Shown here piece after piece: positions 18,351 to 26,387 of a stretch of DNA of 32,937 bases. The translations under genes and the position numbers were made by a program. The DNA comes from Prevotella sp. (lineage in GTDB: Bacteria; Bacteroidota; Bacteroidia; Bacteroidales; Bacteroidaceae). Position 1 is the first letter of the stretch. Every line of letters starts with the position of its first letter. Under the pieces are notes generated by a model, which saw only the letters and a list, made by a program, of their open reading frames with translations, was not told where the DNA came from and made no database searches. Location: positions 1 through 32,937 of the forward strand of contig JAFUFD010000084.1 of assembly GCA_017470055.1 (NCBI GenBank), written 5' to 3'.

Positions 18351-20012
18351 ATGGAACAAAAAATCCAAATCCGTTGCAAAAATAATAAAAAAAACTTAGA
18401 AATCAGCATCGGAAGCACACTTTCTGAAATATTTTCTCAGGCAGGGCTTCAGATGGACTATGGTCCTATCACGGCAAGAGTCAATAACAAAGTGGAGGGA
18501 ATGCACTTCAGAGTATATAAACCAAAGGAGGTGGAGTTTCTCGATATGCATGACGGCTCAGCCCTACGAACCTATACCCGAAGCCTGTTCTTCGTGCTCA
18601 ACAAGGCTGCCCATGAACTATACCCCGACTGCACGGTAGTGATCGACATCCCTGTGTCAAACGGCTATTATGTAGACCTTCGCCTCGACCGCCCCGTGAC
18701 GACGGAGGATGTAGACGCTATTCGCCAGCGAATGCGGGAGATCATTGATGCCGCCATCCCCATCCATCGCCATGAGACAACCACGGAGGACGCCATCCGG
18801 ATGTTCCAAGAGAGCAAGTCCTACTCTAAAGTGCGCCTCTTGGAGAGTTCAGGGAGTCTGTATACCACCTATTATGATATTGACGGGTACATCGACTACT
18901 ACTATGGCAGTTTGTTGACGAACACCTCACAACTTTACCTCTTCGGACTGGAGCCTTATTACGACGGAATGCTGTTGCGCATCCCCACCGCCTCTGACCC
19001 CTCCAAGTTGGGCGAACTGGTAAGACAAGACAAGATGTTCGAGATTTTCAAAGAGCACCATCGCTGGCAGGACATCTTGAAGATGCGCACGGTGGGCGAC
19101 CTGAACCGTGCCATCCAAAGCGGACATTCCGCCCAACTGATACAGGTCAGCGAGGCATTGCAGGAGAAGAAGATCGCACAGATTGCCGATGAGATAGCAT
19201 CCCGCAAGGAGGTGAAGATGGTACTGATAGCAGGACCGTCGAGCAGTGGTAAGACAACCACCTGCAAACGCCTCTCCGTACAACTTGCTGTCAACGGCAT
19301 CCAACCTGTGCAGATTTCCCTCGACGACTATTTCCTCTCTCGCGAGCAGACGCCAAGGGACGAGAAAGGCGACTATGACTTTGAGCACCTGCACGCCTTG
19401 AACATCCCCTTGCTCAACGAACAGATGAACGCCCTGCTACGTGGCGAGGAGATAGAATTGCCCCGCTATGACTTCCAGTCGGGGCAAAATCGCCCAAGCG
19501 GGAAGAAACTGCGACTAAAAGGCAATGAGGTCCTGGTGGTGGAGGGAATCCATGCGCTAAATCCAGAACTGACCGCACAGATACCTGACAACCAGAAATT
19601 CCGCATCTATGCCTCAGCACTGACCACGATCCTACTTGACAATCACAACTATATCCCTACGACGGACAACCGTCTGTTGCGACGCATCATCCGCGACTAC
19701 AAGTATCGTGGCACCTCTGCCCAAGAGACAATCCGTCGCTGGCCGTCTGTCAGACGTGGTGAGAACCGTTGGATATTCCCCTATCAGGAGAATGCCGATG
19801 CCATGTTCAATACTGCCATGCTGTTCGAACTCGCCGTGATTCGCGGACAGGCGATTCCTGTGCTGGAGCAAGTGCCAGAGAACTGTGTCGAGTATGCAGA
19901 GGCATACCGTCTCTTAAAGTTCCTGCGCTATATCCAACCTATTCCCGAAGACCATATCCCACCCACCTCTCTTCTCAGAGAATTCCTGGGAGGCAGTTCG
20001 TTCGACTATTAG
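18351..20012 (+). CDS. Nucleoside kinase with TGS-like N-terminus
   Basis: The 553-residue protein has an N-terminal TGS/ubiquitin-like part (about 1-65), then a region like the second domain of threonyl-tRNA synthetase (about 70-200, with NKAAHELYPDCTVVIDIPVS). A uridine-kinase/phosphoribulokinase domain starts at about 285, with Walker A GPSSSGKT (295-302), QISLDDYF, and PRYDFQSGQNRPSG. This three-part layout is the standard Bacteroidetes and Firmicutes nucleoside kinase often annotated as uridine kinase. It phosphorylates a nucleoside with ATP in the cytoplasm. The exact substrate is uncertain. It converges closely with the Sir2-like gene. Confidence 0.9.
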   Translation: MEQKIQIRCKNNKKNLEISIGSTLSEIFSQAGLQMDYGPITARVNNKVEGMHFRVYKPKEVEFLDMHDGSALRTYTRSLFFVLNKAAHELYPDCTVVIDIPVSNGYYVDLRLDRPVTTEDVDAIRQRMREIIDAAIPIHRHETTTEDAIRMFQESKSYSKVRLLESSGSLYTTYYDIDGYIDYYYGSLLTNTSQLYLFGLEPYYDGMLLRIPTASDPSKLGELVRQDKMFEIFKEHHRWQDILKMRTVGDLNRAIQSGHSAQLIQVSEALQEKKIAQIADEIASRKEVKMVLIAGPSSSGKTTTCKRLSVQLAVNGIQPVQISLDDYFLSREQTPRDEKGDYDFEHLHALNIPLLNEQMNALLRGEEIELPRYDFQSGQNRPSGKKLRLKGNEVLVVEGIHALNPELTAQIPDNQKFRIYASALTTILLDNHNYIPTTDNRLLRRIIRDYKYRGTSAQETIRRWPSVRRGENRWIFPYQENADAMFNTAMLFELAVIRGQAIPVLEQVPENCVEYAEAYRLLKFLRYIQPIPEDHIPPTSLLREFLGGSSFDY

Positions 20013-20757: not shown

Positions 20758-20765
20758 TAATTTTG
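20758..20765 (+). promoter_or_regulatory. -7 box of xanthine salvage operon
   Basis: TAATTTTG, preceded by TTCG and followed by CAAAA, lies 21 bases before the xpt ATG. The -33 region is poor. No purine-riboswitch-like structure was recognised in the 80-base leader region. Confidence 0.5.
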
Positions 20766-20786
20766 CAAAAATAAACAAATAAAACC

Positions 20787-21356
20787 ATGAAAGTATTACG
20801 TGACAGAATCATGCAAGATGGACGCTGCCTGGAGGGCGGCATCCTAAAAGTGGATCGTTTCATCAACCACCAGATGGACCCTTATTTGATGAAGCAAATC
20901 GCCATTGAGTTTATCCGCCGTTTCGCCAACGAGGACATCAACAAGATTATTACGGTGGAGGCATCAGGCATCGCCCCCGCCATCATGCTGGGCTATCTGA
21001 TGGAGTTGCCCGTGGTCTTCGCCAAGAAGAAAAAGCCCTCTACCATGAGTGACTTCTACCAGTCGACCGTCCATTCGTTTACCAAGCAACGTGAATATCC
21101 GTTGACCGTCAGTCGTGAGTATCTGACGAGTGACGACCGTGTGTTGTTCGTTGACGATTTCCTTGCTTACGGCAATGCGGGACTGGGCATCATCGACCTC
21201 TGTCGTCAGGCTGGTGCCACCATCGTCGGCATGGGCTTTATCATCGAGAAAGGTTTCCAGCATGGAAGGAAAGTGTTGTTGGAGCATGGCATCAAACGCA
21301 TTGAGTCACTTGCCATTATAGAGTCTTTAGAGAATAATGAAATCAAACTGAAATAA
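20787..21356 (+). CDS. xpt: Xanthine phosphoribosyltransferase
   Basis: The 189-residue protein matches Xpt in length. It contains the PRPP-binding loop [13 protein letters not shown], an upstream VEASGIAPA loop, and the family N-terminus [20 protein letters not shown], all typical of the type I xanthine enzymes. It converts xanthine and PRPP to XMP in purine salvage. Only five bases separate it from the nucleobase permease, the same pairing as xpt-pbuX of Bacillus subtilis. That context strongly supports the substrate. Confidence 0.93.
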
Positions 21357-21361
21357 TTATC

Positions 21362-22687
21362 ATGGAAAATAAGAGTAATCTTTATCAATTGGATGGCAGG
21401 GTACCCCTCCTGCAGGCTGTCCCCTTTGGACTGCAACACGTGCTTGCCATGTTCGTTGCCAATATCACCCCTATCATCATCCTTGCGAATGTGGTGGGCA
21501 TCGACCCCACCGTGAGCGCCACCTTGATTCAGAACTGTATGATCATCGCTGGTATCGGAACACTCGTACAACTCTATCCTATCTGGCGCATCGGTTCCCG
21601 TCTGCCTATCGTCATGGGAATCAGTTTCACCTTCCTTTCTCTTGCCCTTTTCATTGGTTCCACCCAAGGAATGGGCGTGCTGATGGGAGCAGTCATCATA
21701 GGTGGTATTGTCGAGGGTTTGCTAGGACTCTGTGCGCACTATTGGCTTAAACTCATCCCCCATATCGTGGCGGCTACCGTCGTGACAGCAATCGGTTTCT
21801 CGCTGTTGCCGATTGGTGCCAACTCTTTTGCGGGAGGACAAGGTGCCGCCGACTTTGGAGCAGCCCATAACTGGATCGTAGGTAGTTTTACCCTCCTCGT
21901 TTGTCTGGGTTTCCAGATCTTCGCCAAAGGATTCCTTCGCTCCCTCTCCGTACTGATCGGCTTGGTGTTGGGTTATATCCTTGCCATTTGCATGGGGATG
22001 GTCGACTTCTCTGGTTTCCAGCAGGTAGGTATTGTATCACTACCCAATTTCCTGCCTTTCAAGCCAGAGTTCAACATAGGAGCCATCCTCTCTATCGTCG
22101 CCATCTATCTGGTGTCTGCCACTGAGACGATAGGTGATACCAGTGCGCTCTGCGAGAGTGCGTTGGGTCGCCAGCCACATAAGAGAGAGTTGGGAAATAG
22201 TATCACCTGTGACGGCTTTGTAAGCAGTTTCGCAGGACTCTTCGGATGTACGCCCATCACCTCGTTCAGTCAGAACGTAGGTCTTGCCGCCATGTCGGGC
22301 GTTGTCAACCGTTTCGCTATCGCCACAGGAGCCTGTATCATGATCTTAGGTGGCATCTTCCCCGCTGTCGGATTCCTGCTGACAACCATTCCTCAGGCGG
22401 TGCTGGGAGGTTGTACTATCATGATGTTCGGCTCGATTATGTTTGCTGGTTTCCGCATGATGGCAAGGTGTGGCTTCAGTGACCGTAACATGATTATCGT
22501 GTCCCTCTCGCTGAGTGTCGGATTAGGATTCACACAGGCAACGGAGATGTTCCAGATATTCCCGAAGATCGTACAGACCGTCTTCGCAGAGAACTGTGTT
22601 GCCGTCGTCTTCATCCTCGCTGTCATTCTCAATTTGGTTTTACCTAAGGACGGTAAGGAGAATCCGGAATTGGCAAAGGATGAGTGA
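21362..22687 (+). CDS. NCS2-family xanthine/uracil permease
   Basis: The 441-residue membrane protein has about 12-14 helices of the nucleobase-cation symporter-2 family. It begins with PFGLQHVLAMFVANITP and has IYLVSATETIGDT and the conserved SFSQNVGLAAMSGV segment. It probably imports xanthine (PbuX-like) given the adjacent xpt. Uracil is the alternative. Its last 8 bases overlap the radical SAM gene (ATGAGTGA), so that gene is probably translated from the same message. Confidence 0.92.
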   Translation: MENKSNLYQLDGRVPLLQAVPFGLQHVLAMFVANITPIIILANVVGIDPTVSATLIQNCMIIAGIGTLVQLYPIWRIGSRLPIVMGISFTFLSLALFIGSTQGMGVLMGAVIIGGIVEGLLGLCAHYWLKLIPHIVAATVVTAIGFSLLPIGANSFAGGQGAADFGAAHNWIVGSFTLLVCLGFQIFAKGFLRSLSVLIGLVLGYILAICMGMVDFSGFQQVGIVSLPNFLPFKPEFNIGAILSIVAIYLVSATETIGDTSALCESALGRQPHKRELGNSITCDGFVSSFAGLFGCTPITSFSQNVGLAAMSGVVNRFAIATGACIMILGGIFPAVGFLLTTIPQAVLGGCTIMMFGSIMFAGFRMMARCGFSDRNMIIVSLSLSVGLGFTQATEMFQIFPKIVQTVFAENCVAVVFILAVILNLVLPKDGKENPELAKDE

Positions 22688-23768
22688 ACTGGGGCTCCGC
22701 AAGCGCATTGCGCTGGAACTAGCAGCACAGATCGGCAGCAACATCCGTAAGGAACATCCGCTCAGACAATTGTTCTGGGAGTGCACTCTGCGTTGTAATG
22801 TCAGTTGCCGCCATTGTGGCAGCGATTGCAGGAAACTCTCAGAGGTCAAGGACATGCCTCGGGAGGACTTTCTCAAGGTTCTGGATAGTATTGCGAGGAA
22901 GACGGATCCCCATCAGGTCTTTGTCACCATCACGGGGGGAGAGCCACTACTGCGTGACGACCTGGAGATTTGTGGAGAGGAGATCTTCAGGCGAGGGTTC
23001 CCCTGGGGACTGGTGACGAACGGACTTGCCCTCACTCCTGCGCGTTTCGAGTCGCTACGCAAAGCGGGCATGCACAGCATCACTGTCAGTATGGATGGAC
23101 TGGAAGACAGCCATAACTGGATGCGCCGTCATCCACAGAGTTTCCAGATGGTCAGCCAGTCGTTAGACCTCTTAGTGGCAAACCCGCAGATCGCCTCCGA
23201 TGTCGTGACCTGCGTCAACCAGCGTAACTACGACCAGTTGCCTGCCATACGGGATTTCCTCATTAGCAAAGGCATCGGCTATTGGCGCATCTACTCCATC
23301 TTTCCTGTAGGACGTGCGGCAAAAGACCCGATGATGCAAATCAGCAACGAGCAGTTTCGGGGCATGCTTGACTTTATCCGTCAGACCCGTCAAGAAGGCA
23401 GGATCAACGCCTCGTATGGCTGTGAGGGATTCCTTGGACGCTATGAGGGAGAAGTTCGTGAGATGTTCTTCGACTGTCAGGCTGGTGTGACCGTAGGCTC
23501 TGTGATGGCTGACGGCTCGATAGCGGCATGTGCCAGTATTCGTGCCGACTACCAGCAGGGAAACATCTATGAAGATGACTTCATGGAGGTATGGGAAAAG
23601 CGCTATGCGCCCTATCGGCATCGAGACTGGATGCGCAAGGGCGAGTGCAAGGATTGCCGTTATTGGCGTTATTGCCGAGGGAACGGCATGCACCTCCGTG
23701 ACGAAGAGGGTAACCTCATCTTGTGTCACCTGAAACGAATTCAAGAGCCTAACCAGACAGTTAAATAA
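22680..23768 (+). CDS. Radical SAM/SPASM enzyme, probable lipoprotein modifier
   Basis: The ATG at 22680 gives 362 residues. Upstream starts would lie inside the permease gene. The radical SAM cluster motif is CNVSCRHC (Cys39, 43 and 46), followed by TITGGEPLLRDD and the later VSMDGLEDSH. The C-terminal region carries SPASM-type cysteines, including CKDCRYWRYC (C-x2-C-x5-C) and further Cys before and after. Such enzymes modify peptides or proteins using extra Fe-S clusters. The next gene is a lipoprotein of 88 residues. From memory, NCBI models describe a Bacteroidales pair of this kind (rSAM/lipoprotein system, TIGR04133/TIGR04134). The reaction is unknown. Confidence 0.88.
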   Translation: MSELGLRKRIALELAAQIGSNIRKEHPLRQLFWECTLRCNVSCRHCGSDCRKLSEVKDMPREDFLKVLDSIARKTDPHQVFVTITGGEPLLRDDLEICGEEIFRRGFPWGLVTNGLALTPARFESLRKAGMHSITVSMDGLEDSHNWMRRHPQSFQMVSQSLDLLVANPQIASDVVTCVNQRNYDQLPAIRDFLISKGIGYWRIYSIFPVGRAAKDPMMQISNEQFRGMLDFIRQTRQEGRINASYGCEGFLGRYEGEVREMFFDCQAGVTVGSVMADGSIAACASIRADYQQGNIYEDDFMEVWEKRYAPYRHRDWMRKGECKDCRYWRYCRGNGMHLRDEEGNLILCHLKRIQEPNQTVK

Positions 23769-23801
23769 TCTTTATTTAACCGTTTATTCAATAATAATCC
23801 A

Positions 23802-23809
23802 TAATTTTG
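23802..23809 (+). promoter_or_regulatory. -7 box of small lipoprotein gene
   Basis: TAATTTTG followed by CACCC lies 29 bases before the lipoprotein ATG, so this gene can be made independently of and in excess over the radical SAM enzyme. The -33 box is unclear. Confidence 0.55.
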
Positions 23810-23837
23810 CACCCGAAATCATCAAAACGCTTGAGTT

Positions 23838-24104
23838 ATGAAGAAAATTCGTCAATCTATCAACCTCGTGCTCTCCGCCATTATCGTGGCTTTGGGCTTT
23901 GGTTCCTGTGTCTCTCAGAAGACCTACAAAGCCGCCCAAGAGGAAATAGGAGTGCTGAAGGCTGAGAATGGAGCATTAAAAGCAGAGAATGCGAATTTGC
24001 AACAGGAAATAAGTAAAATCAGGGATTATCAGAAACGAACAGAGGAGCGTAGGGTGGTTTATGGTCCTCGTCCTACCAACTATAACGAGAACATCAACAA
24101 ATAA
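23838..24104 (+). CDS. Small lipoprotein, probable radical SAM substrate
   Basis: The 88-residue protein has a signal peptide and lipobox GFGSC (Cys24). A coiled coil with heptad Leu/Ala spacing follows (about 30-66, with the repeated LKAEN motif: VLKAENGALKAENANLQQE). The tail is basic and polar and contains VVYGPRPTNYNEN (74-86). The Y-G-P element near the C-terminus is a plausible modification site. The layout is a lipid anchor, a rod and an exposed tail, like a small Lpp-type surface or periplasmic lipoprotein. It lies 69 bases after the radical SAM/SPASM gene with its own -7 box. The substrate role is inferred from the pairing. Confidence 0.8.
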   Translation: MKKIRQSINLVLSAIIVALGFGSCVSQKTYKAAQEEIGVLKAENGALKAENANLQQEISKIRDYQKRTEERRVVYGPRPTNYNENINK

Positions 24105-24140: not shown

Positions 24141-24746
24141 ATGGATAAAGTAAGTTATGCACTGGGCTTAGGCATTGGTCGCCAACTTGCCCAGATGGGT
24201 GCTACCGAGTTGAATATCGACGATTTTGCCACCGCTATTAAGGATGTGATTGCTGGTAATGATTTGAAAGTATCCAACCGTGAGGCACAACAGATAGTAC
24301 AAGACTATTTCGCCGCGCAAGAGGAGAAAATCAACAAGCAGCGTGCTGAGCAAGGCAAGGCACACAAGGAGGCTGGTGAGAAATACCTCGCTGAGAACGC
24401 CAAGAAAGACGGAGTGATTACCCTGCCTAGTGGACTGCAATATCAGGTATTGAAGGAAGGTAACGGCAAGAAGCCAACGGCAAAGGACAGCGTGAAGTGC
24501 CACTATGAGGGATTCCTGATTGACGGCACCGTATTCGACAGCAGCGTAGAGCGTGGCGAGCCAGCAGTCTTCGGATTGCAGCAGGTCATCGCCGGTTGGA
24601 CGGAAGGCCTGCAACTGATGCAGGAGGGTGCAAAGTACCGTTTCTTCATCCCCTACCGTCTTGCCTATGGCGAGGGTGGCGCAGGCGCCTCCATTCCTCC
24701 GTTTGCCGCTCTTATCTTCGATGTGGAGTTGATTCAAGTGATGTAA
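24141..24746 (+). CDS. FKBP-type peptidyl-prolyl isomerase, cytoplasmic
   Basis: The 201-residue protein has no signal peptide. An N-terminal FklB/FkpA-type helical dimerisation region (about 1-90) begins VSYALGLGIGRQLAQ. The FKBP domain (about 95-201) keeps the usual pocket residues: HYEGFLIDGTVFDSS, VIAGWTEGL, and LAYGEGGAGASIPPFAALIF. It should catalyse proline cis-trans isomerisation and act as a folding helper in the cytoplasm. It is the first of three tandem paralogues (gaps of 24 and 3 bases). Confidence 0.92.
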   Translation: MDKVSYALGLGIGRQLAQMGATELNIDDFATAIKDVIAGNDLKVSNREAQQIVQDYFAAQEEKINKQRAEQGKAHKEAGEKYLAENAKKDGVITLPSGLQYQVLKEGNGKKPTAKDSVKCHYEGFLIDGTVFDSSVERGEPAVFGLQQVIAGWTEGLQLMQEGAKYRFFIPYRLAYGEGGAGASIPPFAALIFDVELIQVM

Positions 24747-24770
24747 CGAGATAACGAAATAATAAGAAAA

Positions 24771-25655
24771 ATGAAAAAGTTTACTTTTGCTGCTATTGCA
24801 GTTGTAGCCGCTGTGACTTTGTTCTCTTGCGGCAATGGTGCTCCCAAGGCAAACCTGAAGAGTGATGTTGATACCCTCAGTTATGCTATTGGTATGGCAC
24901 AGACCAATGGTCTGAAAGATTACCTGGTGAATCGTCTGGACATTGATACTGCCTATATGGACGAGTTTATCAAAGGTCTGAACGAAGGTGCTAATGCTGG
25001 TGACGACAAGAAGAAGGCTGCTTACTATGCCGGTATTCAGATTGGTCAGCAGATCAGCAACCAGATGGTAAAAGGTATCAACCACGAATTGTTTGGCAAT
25101 GACTCTACCAAGACCATCTCGCTGAAGAACTTTATGGCTGGATTTATCAGTGGTACTACTGGCAAGGGCGGTCTGATGACTGTTGACTCTGCCCAGGTGG
25201 TAGCCCAGGCGCTGATGCAGAGCATCAAGGAAAAGACCATGGAGAAAGAGTTTGGTCCTAACAGAGAGGCTGGAGAGAAGTTCCTCGCTGAGAATGCCAA
25301 GAAAGAGGGAGTGAAGACCCTTGAGGGCGGTGTTCAGTATAAGGTCATCAAGGAGGGTACTGGTGCCATCCCTGCTGATACCTCTCGTGTGAAGGTTAAC
25401 TATGAGGGTCGTCTGCTCGATGGCACTATCTTCGACAGCACTTATAAGCGTGGTGAGCCTGCTGAGTTCCGTTGCAACCAGGTTATCAAGGGTTGGACAG
25501 AGGCTCTTATCCACATGCCCGCAGGTTCTGTCTGGGAAATATATGTTCCTCAGGAGAAGGCATACGGTGCTCGTCAGCAGGGTAATGACATCAAGCCATT
25601 CTCTATGCTGATCTTCAAGATTGAACTGTTAGAGGTTAACCCTAAGAGAAAGTAA
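24771..25655 (+). CDS. FKBP-type peptidyl-prolyl isomerase, lipoprotein
   Basis: The 294-residue protein has a signal peptide with lipobox LFSC (Cys20), so it is membrane-anchored in the envelope. A helical dimerisation region (about 33-170) begins DTLSYAIGMAQTNGLKDY. The FKBP domain (about 180-292) has NYEGRLLDGTIFDST, VIKGWTEAL, KAYGARQQGNDIKPFSMLIF. The pocket residues Tyr, Phe-Asp, Val-Ile and Trp are kept. It probably helps fold exported or outer-membrane proteins. It is the middle gene of the three-gene FKBP cluster and closely related to the third. Confidence 0.92.
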   Translation: MKKFTFAAIAVVAAVTLFSCGNGAPKANLKSDVDTLSYAIGMAQTNGLKDYLVNRLDIDTAYMDEFIKGLNEGANAGDDKKKAAYYAGIQIGQQISNQMVKGINHELFGNDSTKTISLKNFMAGFISGTTGKGGLMTVDSAQVVAQALMQSIKEKTMEKEFGPNREAGEKFLAENAKKEGVKTLEGGVQYKVIKEGTGAIPADTSRVKVNYEGRLLDGTIFDSTYKRGEPAEFRCNQVIKGWTEALIHMPAGSVWEIYVPQEKAYGARQQGNDIKPFSMLIFKIELLEVNPKRK

Positions 25656-25658
25656 TCG

Positions 25659-26387
25659 ATGAGAAGAATCATCATGGTAGCACTCATCCTTGCGATGGGT
25701 GCTACTTTCCATTCCGCAAAAGCCCAGCGACTTGAGTCACGTGCAGACTCGCTGAACTACTGTTTCGGTATGGCACAGTCACAGGGACTGTTACGCTTCC
25801 TGGAGCAGTTCCGACAGGATGTCTATGGCAACGACTCGACGAACACCGACGGGTTTAATATCGACCTCTTTATGAAGGGCTTTAACGATGGTGTGAATAA
25901 CAACCACCAACTGATGACCTACGAACAGGCTAACGCCGTCCTGCCTGGATTGATTAATACGGTCAAGGCAGAAACGACACTCAGACAATACGGCTACAAC
26001 AAGGAGGCTGGAGAGAAGTTCCTTGCTGAGAACGCCAAGAAGAAAGGTGTCAAGGTGCTGCCCAGTGGCGTACAGTATAAGGTGCTGCAGAAAGGAACGG
26101 GAGCCATTCCCGCTGACACCTGCCGTGTAAAGGTCAATTACGAGGGGCACACCATCGATGGTAAGGAGTTCGACAGTTCCTATAAACGTGGGAAACCCGC
26201 TGAGTTTGGCTGTAAACAAGTCATCAAAGGCTGGACGGAGGTACTCACCCACATGCCTGTCGGTTCTATCTGGGAGGTGTATATTCCCCAAGAGTTAGCC
26301 TATGGTGAGCATAAACAGGGTAACGACATCCTACCCTTCTCCATGCTGATCTTCAAAATAGAACTTCTGGAGATTGTCAACAAATAA
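25659..26387 (+). CDS. FKBP-type peptidyl-prolyl isomerase, periplasmic
   Basis: The 242-residue protein has a cleavable signal peptide ending near AKAQ (about residue 23) without a lipobox, so a soluble periplasmic location is expected. A helical part starts [19 protein letters not shown]. The FKBP domain has [24 protein letters not shown] and [20 protein letters not shown]. It begins three bases after the previous stop and is followed by a terminator, so it ends the operon. Its C-terminal domain is very similar to that of the lipoprotein paralogue, which suggests duplication. Confidence 0.92.

Follow-up and report, generated by a model that had tools for sequence, protein, structure and literature searches.

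What does a radical S-adenosylmethionine (SAM) enzyme do to the small lipoprotein encoded directly behind it? The question is raised by a 32,937-nucleotide contig of Prevotella sp. (JAFUFD010000084.1, assembly GCA_017470055.1; "the window" below means this whole stretch), which encodes a radical SAM/SPASM enzyme of the TIGR04133 family, P0002, and an 88-residue coiled-coil lipoprotein, P0001, proposed to be its substrate. A first-pass annotation had claimed that the enzyme modifies the lipoprotein and had left the chemistry open. Comparison across genomes supports the modification through co-occurrence, selection on the lipoprotein tail and a Tyr-Gly motif present at 99 of 120 loci of the enzyme family, and the evidence points to splicease-like excision of tyramine as the reaction. 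To the explanation as a whole, namely splicease-like action of the TIGR04133 enzyme on an X-Tyr-Gly site of the lipoprotein before export, we assign a probability of about 0.6.

P0002 proved to be a full-length member of TIGR04133, which it matched over model positions 1-350 of 350 with 578.5 bits (cut-off 425). NCBIfam records this family as a hypothetical equivalog whose name is its number; Parabacteroides distasonis and Phocaeicola massiliensis are among its named carriers. The CxxxCxxC radical SAM core and the SPASM-type cysteines that had been claimed for the enzyme were both recovered: Pfam Radical_SAM matched with 62.8 bits against a cut-off of 29.5 and SPASM, over residues 266-326, with 30.1 against 21.5, and in an alignment of 120 TIGR04133 proteins C39, C43 and C46 were invariant (120/120), as were C266, C284, C323, C326, C332 and C349, plus C50 and C248. 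The usual CX2CX5CX3C run of SPASM domains lacks its final Cys in P0002, where G336 stands instead. The downstream lipoprotein was likewise as described, with its -7 box, coiled coil and YGPRP tail, and the coordinates given for the pair were correct.

The two genes go together within the genus. We surveyed 249 same-genus genomes, accepting lipoprotein matches to E 1e-4. TIGR04133 was matched in 66 of them, above cut-off in 63, and ten genomes had the lipoprotein, all of them within the 66 enzyme-positive ones, although the enzyme of one of them (G767; G, L and C numbers are our handles for genomes, loci and contigs) is a below-cut-off fragment. The widespread occurrence of the lipoprotein without the enzyme, which the first-pass annotation had named as contrary evidence, was thus not seen in these genomes. 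Seven of the ten, with E below 1e-20, are clear orthologues, and each is encoded downstream of the enzyme on the same contig. The gap behind the enzyme match is 92-103 bp for six of them and 1,045 bp for the one in G719; in the window the lipoprotein gene begins 69 bp downstream of the enzyme gene. The other three are weak matches (35-49% identity) on contigs other than the enzyme's. Genes for FKBP-type peptidyl-prolyl isomerases follow the lipoprotein in 7/7 orthologue loci, and upstream of the first FKBP gene of genus loci both enzyme and lipoprotein were present in 2 of 30 cases, neither in 28 and a single one in 0 (30 of 50 matching genomes gave loci, L289 with 310 upstream bases only). 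We judge the enzyme-lipoprotein pair, on this comparison, to be real.

Within the lipoprotein it is the tail that is held constant. The tail reads VVYGPRPTNY at residues 73-82 of P0001, and VVYGPRP is identical in the seven orthologues whereas the coil differs in sequence and length. Mean pairwise identity was 0.80 over 15 tail residues and 0.61 over the coil (five 88-residue proteins). Because the differences in the seven VVYGPRP codons, counted over 21 orthologue pairs, were all synonymous (79 synonymous, 0 non-synonymous), the tail is judged to be under purifying selection.

The statement that such pairs are catalogued in Bacteroidales held for the enzyme but not for this lipoprotein. NCBIfam describes TIGR04134 as the lipoprotein accompanying the TIGR04133 enzyme, and that is a different protein: we rejected P0001 as a member, since its match gave 13.3 bits (cut-off 39.8) and covered signal peptide residues 4-28 only. 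The whole genome (completeness 95%, contamination 7%) contained no over-cut-off TIGR04134, and two below-cut-off matches fell in 657-residue frames. The two systems are alike in that a full TIGR04133 member adjoins a lipoprotein gene. They differ in that P0001 has a coiled coil and TIGR04134-type proteins a beta domain, and in that the motif stands near the C-terminus of P0001 but soon after the lipid anchor in the TIGR04134 type. Neither of two annotated TIGR04134-type plasmid proteins, P0008 and P0009, is a coiled coil; P0009 has an over-cut-off CarboxypepD_reg domain, and P0008 falls narrowly short of the cut-off for that model. Among 295 same-order genomes TIGR04134 was over cut-off in 42 and TIGR04133 in 68; 39 of the 42 also had over-cut-off TIGR04133 (lists matched by hand), G247 had a 355-bit enzyme match, and G263 and G199 had enzyme matches that were weak and general only.

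The tail motif recurs well outside the orthologues of P0001. We examined 120 over-cut-off TIGR04133 loci, which are related and hence not independent events, with flanks of ~1.5 kb (ready-made loci) or 5-6 kb, some reaching contig edges. Counting open reading frames (ORFs) of up to 330 amino acids on the enzyme's strand, we found that 99 loci had, no more than 1.2 kb away, a small ORF in which a hydrophobic N-terminal segment is followed by Tyr-Gly and, after one or two residues, Pro (YG.{1,2}P). Such motif ORFs made up 123/317 near the enzyme, 1/323 at a distance and 0/229 in the background (ten 20-kb stretches, 200 kb of G405, both strands). The pattern also emerged with no motif set beforehand: when all residue pairs with gaps of 0-7 were compared in exported-looking ORFs within 300 bp of the enzyme, YG was the most enriched, at 103/110 loci as against 51/522 control ORFs, followed by Y..P and G.P at 94/110 loci each. 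The near sets were longer than the control ORFs (148 vs 61 residues), which raises the counts of every pair but should not on its own bring YG to the top. Further genus loci, taken from the top TIGR04133 matches, had a motif partner in 18/19 cases (L252 had none). A second TIGR04133 enzyme of the same genome (G000 contig C95, L126/L009; 587.8 bits) has as partner a 79-residue lipoprotein with CYGPAPRDY, where Tyr-Gly directly follows a lipobox-like Cys.

Apart from signal and motif, the partners have little in common. With both masked, the 123 partner ORFs fell into 38 clusters by BLAST (E 1e-4), one of 71 members that includes the TIGR04134 type and 37 small ones, two of the latter probably due to chance (the chance-like ORFs at L028, -551, and L097, +240, were kept among the 123). 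This leaves ~36 groups without detectable similarity, a figure obtained from short masked proteins, between which remote kinship is possible. Some partners carry the motif in two or three copies. A further shared element may lie at the end of the signal peptide: [LI]G[FLIMYV] stood 1-4 residues before the lipobox Cys in 56/94 lipobox partners vs 1/17 background lipobox ORFs, a small control, and may serve in recognition.

A Tyr-Gly target beside a radical SAM enzyme recalls the spliceases. Passages of PMC11002830 and PMC10373908 describe PlpX-type spliceases as excising tyramine at X-Tyr-Gly, and those of PMC11002830 place the splicease family in IPR026482, with precursors bearing Nif11 or nitrile hydratase leaders; the resulting spliceotides inhibit proteases, according to passages of PMC11117315 and PMC10373908. 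Our splicease sample consisted of 80 TIGR04103-like loci from named genomes, known here from sequence alone. TIGR04103 is presumably the same family as IPR026482, with which its Nif11 and nitrile hydratase leader peptide (NHLP) precursors are consistent. With leader profiles, a Nif11/NHLP precursor was found at 77/80 loci, with YG in the core at 76/80, and 118 of 128 neighbouring precursors had YG; a Gly-Gly pattern used in place of the profiles gave precursor ORFs at 34/80 loci, and at 11 of these the core had YG. In TIGR04103 precursors the Gly is often followed by V or I, so that their contexts overlap with those of the lipoproteins without being identical. On a Nostoc plasmid a TIGR04103 enzyme (853 bits) adjoins a Nif11 precursor ending ALYGLPPELF, the same pattern as in lipoprotein partners such as VLYGPPPAQY; P0002 and this enzyme share 27% identity over 354 residues.

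The enzymes themselves have residues in common. In a comparison of 120 TIGR04133, 21 TIGR04103, 3 GDL and 11 other SPASM proteins, W202, G253, Y255 and E256 were conserved in TIGR04133 and TIGR04103 and atypical of the 11 others. G47 and S48 were also common to the two families, in columns covered by 7 of the 11 other proteins; four of the five AhbD-like alignment rows lacked the N-terminus owing to the start chosen. H338 was dropped as a residue shared by P0002 and the spliceases because it pairs in one alignment and lies one column off in another. In a tree without heme enzymes TIGR04133 stood beside the splicease/GDL group with moderate support (96/74). Both systems consist of a radical SAM/SPASM enzyme beside small precursors with a common X-Tyr-Gly, sometimes in several copies. 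They differ in that the splicease leader is Nif11/NHLP while that of the TIGR04133 substrate would be a lipoprotein signal peptide, and in that TIGR04133 substrates would be envelope proteins in which Pro usually stands at the second or third position past the Gly. We do not class P0002 as a splicease but argue that it acts like one. A scan of genome contigs with the DNA pattern of a published splice tag gave 0 matches; in passages of published work such tags had been tried in FtsZ, and the FtsZ entries with that tag in those passages are marked unmodified.

Several observations weigh against a splicease-like reaction. P0002 scored 111, 113 and 109 bits against TIGR04103, NirJ2 and AhbD, the first of these (111.4 bits, residues 29-355) against a cut-off of 725. 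TIGR04133 forms a separate long-branched clade (100/100), and an unrooted tree with the AhbD-like rows added leaves its grouping with the spliceases undecided; common descent with the spliceases is not something that the family trees show. The SPASM cysteine pattern of the spliceases differs from that of TIGR04133, no PlpY-like gene lies beside P0002, whose neighbours are the permease, lipoprotein and FKBP genes (the rest of the genome was not searched), and P0001 matches no Nif11/NHLP leader model in NCBIfam. Only 34/128 cyanobacterial splicease precursors have YG.{1,2}P, and the residue before Tyr is usually L, M or I there vs most often E, M, C or K in the TIGR04133 partners. The whole signal peptide of the orthologues (mean identity 0.62, a value that a start misplaced by one codon in L267 may have depressed) is conserved no better than the coil. 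Finally, 21 of the 120 TIGR04133 loci had no partner under the YG.{1,2}P filter. Thirteen of these were checked ORF by ORF: at L110 ACYGTP had been missed by the signal filter, and at L084 the sequence is YGSW, lacking the Pro. The motif protein of L114 lies 2.4 kb off, and at L119 and L121 the only motif ORFs are of ~480 amino acids, above the size limit; by inspection there is no convincing partner at L115, L123, L130, L133 and L134.

The Tyr-Gly could be the site of some other reaction, such as a C-C or C-O cross-link from Tyr to an aromatic residue at Y+7, epimerisation or C-beta oxidation; SPASM enzymes carry out many reactions of this sort. This is the most serious competitor, though we consider it distinctly the less probable account. 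Of 145 distinct contexts, 44 have Y and 33 have F at Y+7, so an aromatic residue is indeed frequent there, and the family's position as its own clade also speaks for this account. The aromatic is, however, missing or shifted in several partners, among them MYGTPNVN (at the C-terminus), CYGTPQDMAND and YGSPEVLQQY, which leaves Tyr-Gly, usually with Pro, as the common part; and to our knowledge the spliceases are the sole radical SAM family with an X-Tyr-Gly target.

Readings in which the lipoprotein is no substrate at all fare worse. The enzyme might belong to a common pathway without acting on P0001, whose YG would then be a binding site for an envelope partner, and the promoter-like box of the lipoprotein's own means that co-transcription with the enzyme is not required. 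We think this improbable, given ~36 dissimilar partner groups that share a signal type and a motif rare away from the enzyme, and given the same Tyr-Gly in the cores of the ribosomally synthesised and post-translationally modified peptides (RiPPs) of the splicease family. It is hardly credible that a generic FtsL/DivIC-like envelope protein lies by chance beside a radical SAM enzyme with which it has nothing to do: the coil does resemble such proteins (FtsL 25.1 and DivIC 27.8 bits, below the cut-offs of 42.45 and 28.9), but the 10/10 co-occurrence, the short distances at 7/7 clear orthologues, the invariant tail and the joint presence or absence of both genes at the FKBP site all speak against it.

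Splicease-like action would proceed as follows. P0002 has no apparent signal peptide, and for this reason we place the modification in the cytoplasm, before export. There the enzyme would recognise X-Tyr-Gly-(x)-Pro (V74-Y75-G76-P-R-P in P0001), possibly along with the C-terminal end of the signal peptide, and radical SAM chemistry at Y75 would release tyramine. Sec export, lipidation of Cys24 and cleavage by signal peptidase II would then deliver the protein to the envelope, where an electrophilic ketoamide would sit at the tip of the coiled-coil stalk and where the modified protein would have its function. That the TIGR04133 enzyme modifies Y75 seems very probable from the comparisons above; that it does so by excising tyramine we rate at somewhat better than even. 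Because the residues from the lipid-anchor Cys onward read CVSQKTY, a periplasmic location of P0001 is the more likely one. More tentatively still, and at slightly less than even odds, the TIGR04133 enzymes at large may be lipoprotein spliceases that act on X-Tyr-Gly in dozens of dissimilar lipoproteins of Bacteroidales, leaving an electrophilic alpha-keto-beta-amino acid in these envelope proteins. In the coiled-coil version the stalk would then hold the reactive group in the periplasm, where it might capture a protease or tether the protein covalently, the chemistry differing from that of Braun lipoprotein.

The route of modification followed by lipidation has a close precedent. As described in passages of PMC12636315, the DAG-RiPPs (dyb cluster) are RiPP-lipoprotein hybrids of Bacteroidota made by multinuclear non-heme iron-dependent oxidative enzymes (MNIOs), whose precursor is modified in the cytoplasm and then lipidated via the lipoprotein pathway. 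The likeness lies in the lipoprotein signal peptide and conserved core motif on the precursor; P0001 likewise has a lipobox (GSC with Cys24, read by eye) and adjoins the enzyme gene. The enzyme differs: in those passages it is an iron-dependent MNIO whose target is a CPxCGxG motif, and here it is a radical SAM protein. The main text of PMC12636315 contains neither "radical SAM" nor "rSAM". A further comparison is offered by the GDL-motif system of a TIGR03913 radical SAM enzyme with DUF1843 peptides, in which TIGR03913 groups with TIGR04103 in trees. Two of five DUF1843 peptides beside such enzymes (L150 3287-3742; L149 4189-4902) carry PYG close to the N-terminus, a hint that the wider clade may have a Tyr-Gly target in common; unlike in TIGR04133 partners, no signal peptide was seen in the five.

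The enzyme family and some partner lipoproteins are already in databases, and splicing and lipidated RiPPs have each been described on their own. The apparent novelty lies in one motif across many dissimilar envelope proteins, a coiled-coil candidate substrate outside TIGR04134 and a testable splicease prediction. Scott et al. 2022 (Chem) reportedly deals with widespread ribosomal beta-amino acid peptides and proteins. That work may cover part of the subject; among the matches listed in our literature search there was no mention of TIGR04133 or TIGR04134 and no paper on the pair, and TIGR04133 and lipoprotein substrates are unnamed in the citing passages of works that refer to Scott et al. One site and one mass shift (-135.07 Da for tyramine excision) can now be tested. 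Were splicing true, beta-amino acids and reactive ketoamides would occur in outer-membrane or periplasmic lipoproteins of TIGR04133 carriers, which would matter for how proteases are inhibited and how the envelope is built; splicing tools independent of a PlpY-type partner might follow, and RiPP-lipoprotein hybrids would extend from MNIO to radical SAM enzymes.

Features of the enzyme-lipoprotein locus in the window
Feature	Position	Strand	Basis
TIGR04133 radical SAM/SPASM enzyme P0002, 362 aa	22680..23768	+	NCBIfam TIGR04133; Pfam Radical_SAM, SPASM; ATG at 22680, stop at 23768
CNVSCRHC, radical SAM cluster motif CxxxCxxC (C39, C43, C46), codons 39-46	22794..22817	+	translation
SPASM region, C266 to C349	23475..23726	+	Pfam SPASM; invariant cysteines
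Bacteroidetes-type -7 box (presumed) TAATTTTGC of lipoprotein gene	23802..23810	+	TANNTTTGC upstream in 7/7 orthologues
88-aa coiled-coil lipoprotein P0001, proposed substrate	23838..24104	+	ORF; only in enzyme-positive genomes
Lipoprotein signal peptide ending ALGFGSC, lipobox Cys24	23838..23909	+	sequence; ALGFGSC in 7 orthologues (MLGFGSC in one)
Coiled-coil stalk, ~residues 26-66	23913..24035	+	heptads by eye; length differs among orthologues
Tail motif VVYGPRP (residues 73-79), proposed modification site V74-Y75-G76	24054..24074	+	invariant in 7 orthologues

The coil of P0001 is leucine-zipper-like, with weak HALZ, bZIP and DivIC matches that are each below cut-off. We take TAATTTTGC to be a Bacteroidetes-type -7 box by the consensus for such boxes; TANNTTTGC occurs 18 times in the window against 4.15 expected by chance, and a complete TTTG-N(17-21)-TANNTTTG promoter was not found at the site of the lipoprotein's box. 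On the other side, the P0002 start codon overlaps the final 8 bases of a xanthine permease gene (21362-22687), which is preceded by a xanthine phosphoribosyltransferase gene (20787-21356). Because a -7 box lies upstream of the latter (20758-20766) and the three genes run in the same direction (20787-23768), the enzyme may be expressed together with purine salvage and the lipoprotein from its own box. Upstream of the orthologue loci the permease was present in four and the phosphoribosyltransferase directly in one; G915 has neither within 1.5 kb, and the flank of G719 is too short to show.

Downstream of the lipoprotein gene with its proline-rich tail stand three consecutive FKBP-type peptidyl-prolyl isomerase genes (24141-26387). 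The FKBP-lipoprotein neighbourhood may be accidental, because the first two FKBP genes stay paired without the enzyme in the genus loci examined. Further upstream the window encodes a 553-residue protein (18351-20012) with a threonyl-tRNA-synthetase-like N-terminal part and a uridine-kinase-like C-terminal part. A defence-system reading was rejected: PADLOC gave the enzyme only viperin models (residues 32-231, best 68.5 bits) and gave no match for P0001.

Among the wider set of loci, the enzymes of L115, L123, L133 and L134 adjoin a membrane protein gene (MELIATYMFLALAISAMCSVLEATLL... and similar). In a divergent TIGR04133 subgroup (L089-L111, 43-51% identity) many partners read FQACYGTPQD, the Cys before Tyr closing the hydrophobic segment outside any standard lipobox; should this Cys be a site of both lipidation and splicing, the lipid would sit on the very residue that becomes the beta-amino acid. 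L066 and L076 have larger motif partners (~260 amino acids) with AQYGAP directly after a signal peptide, and because these lack a lipobox the TIGR04133 system may extend beyond lipoproteins. Outside Bacteroidota, a TIGR04133 enzyme and lipoprotein are found on the Treponema saccharophilum plasmid pTS1 (L146 3752-6044), adjoining an annotated Mpi-family DNA invertase, which perhaps reflects horizontal transfer or phase variation.

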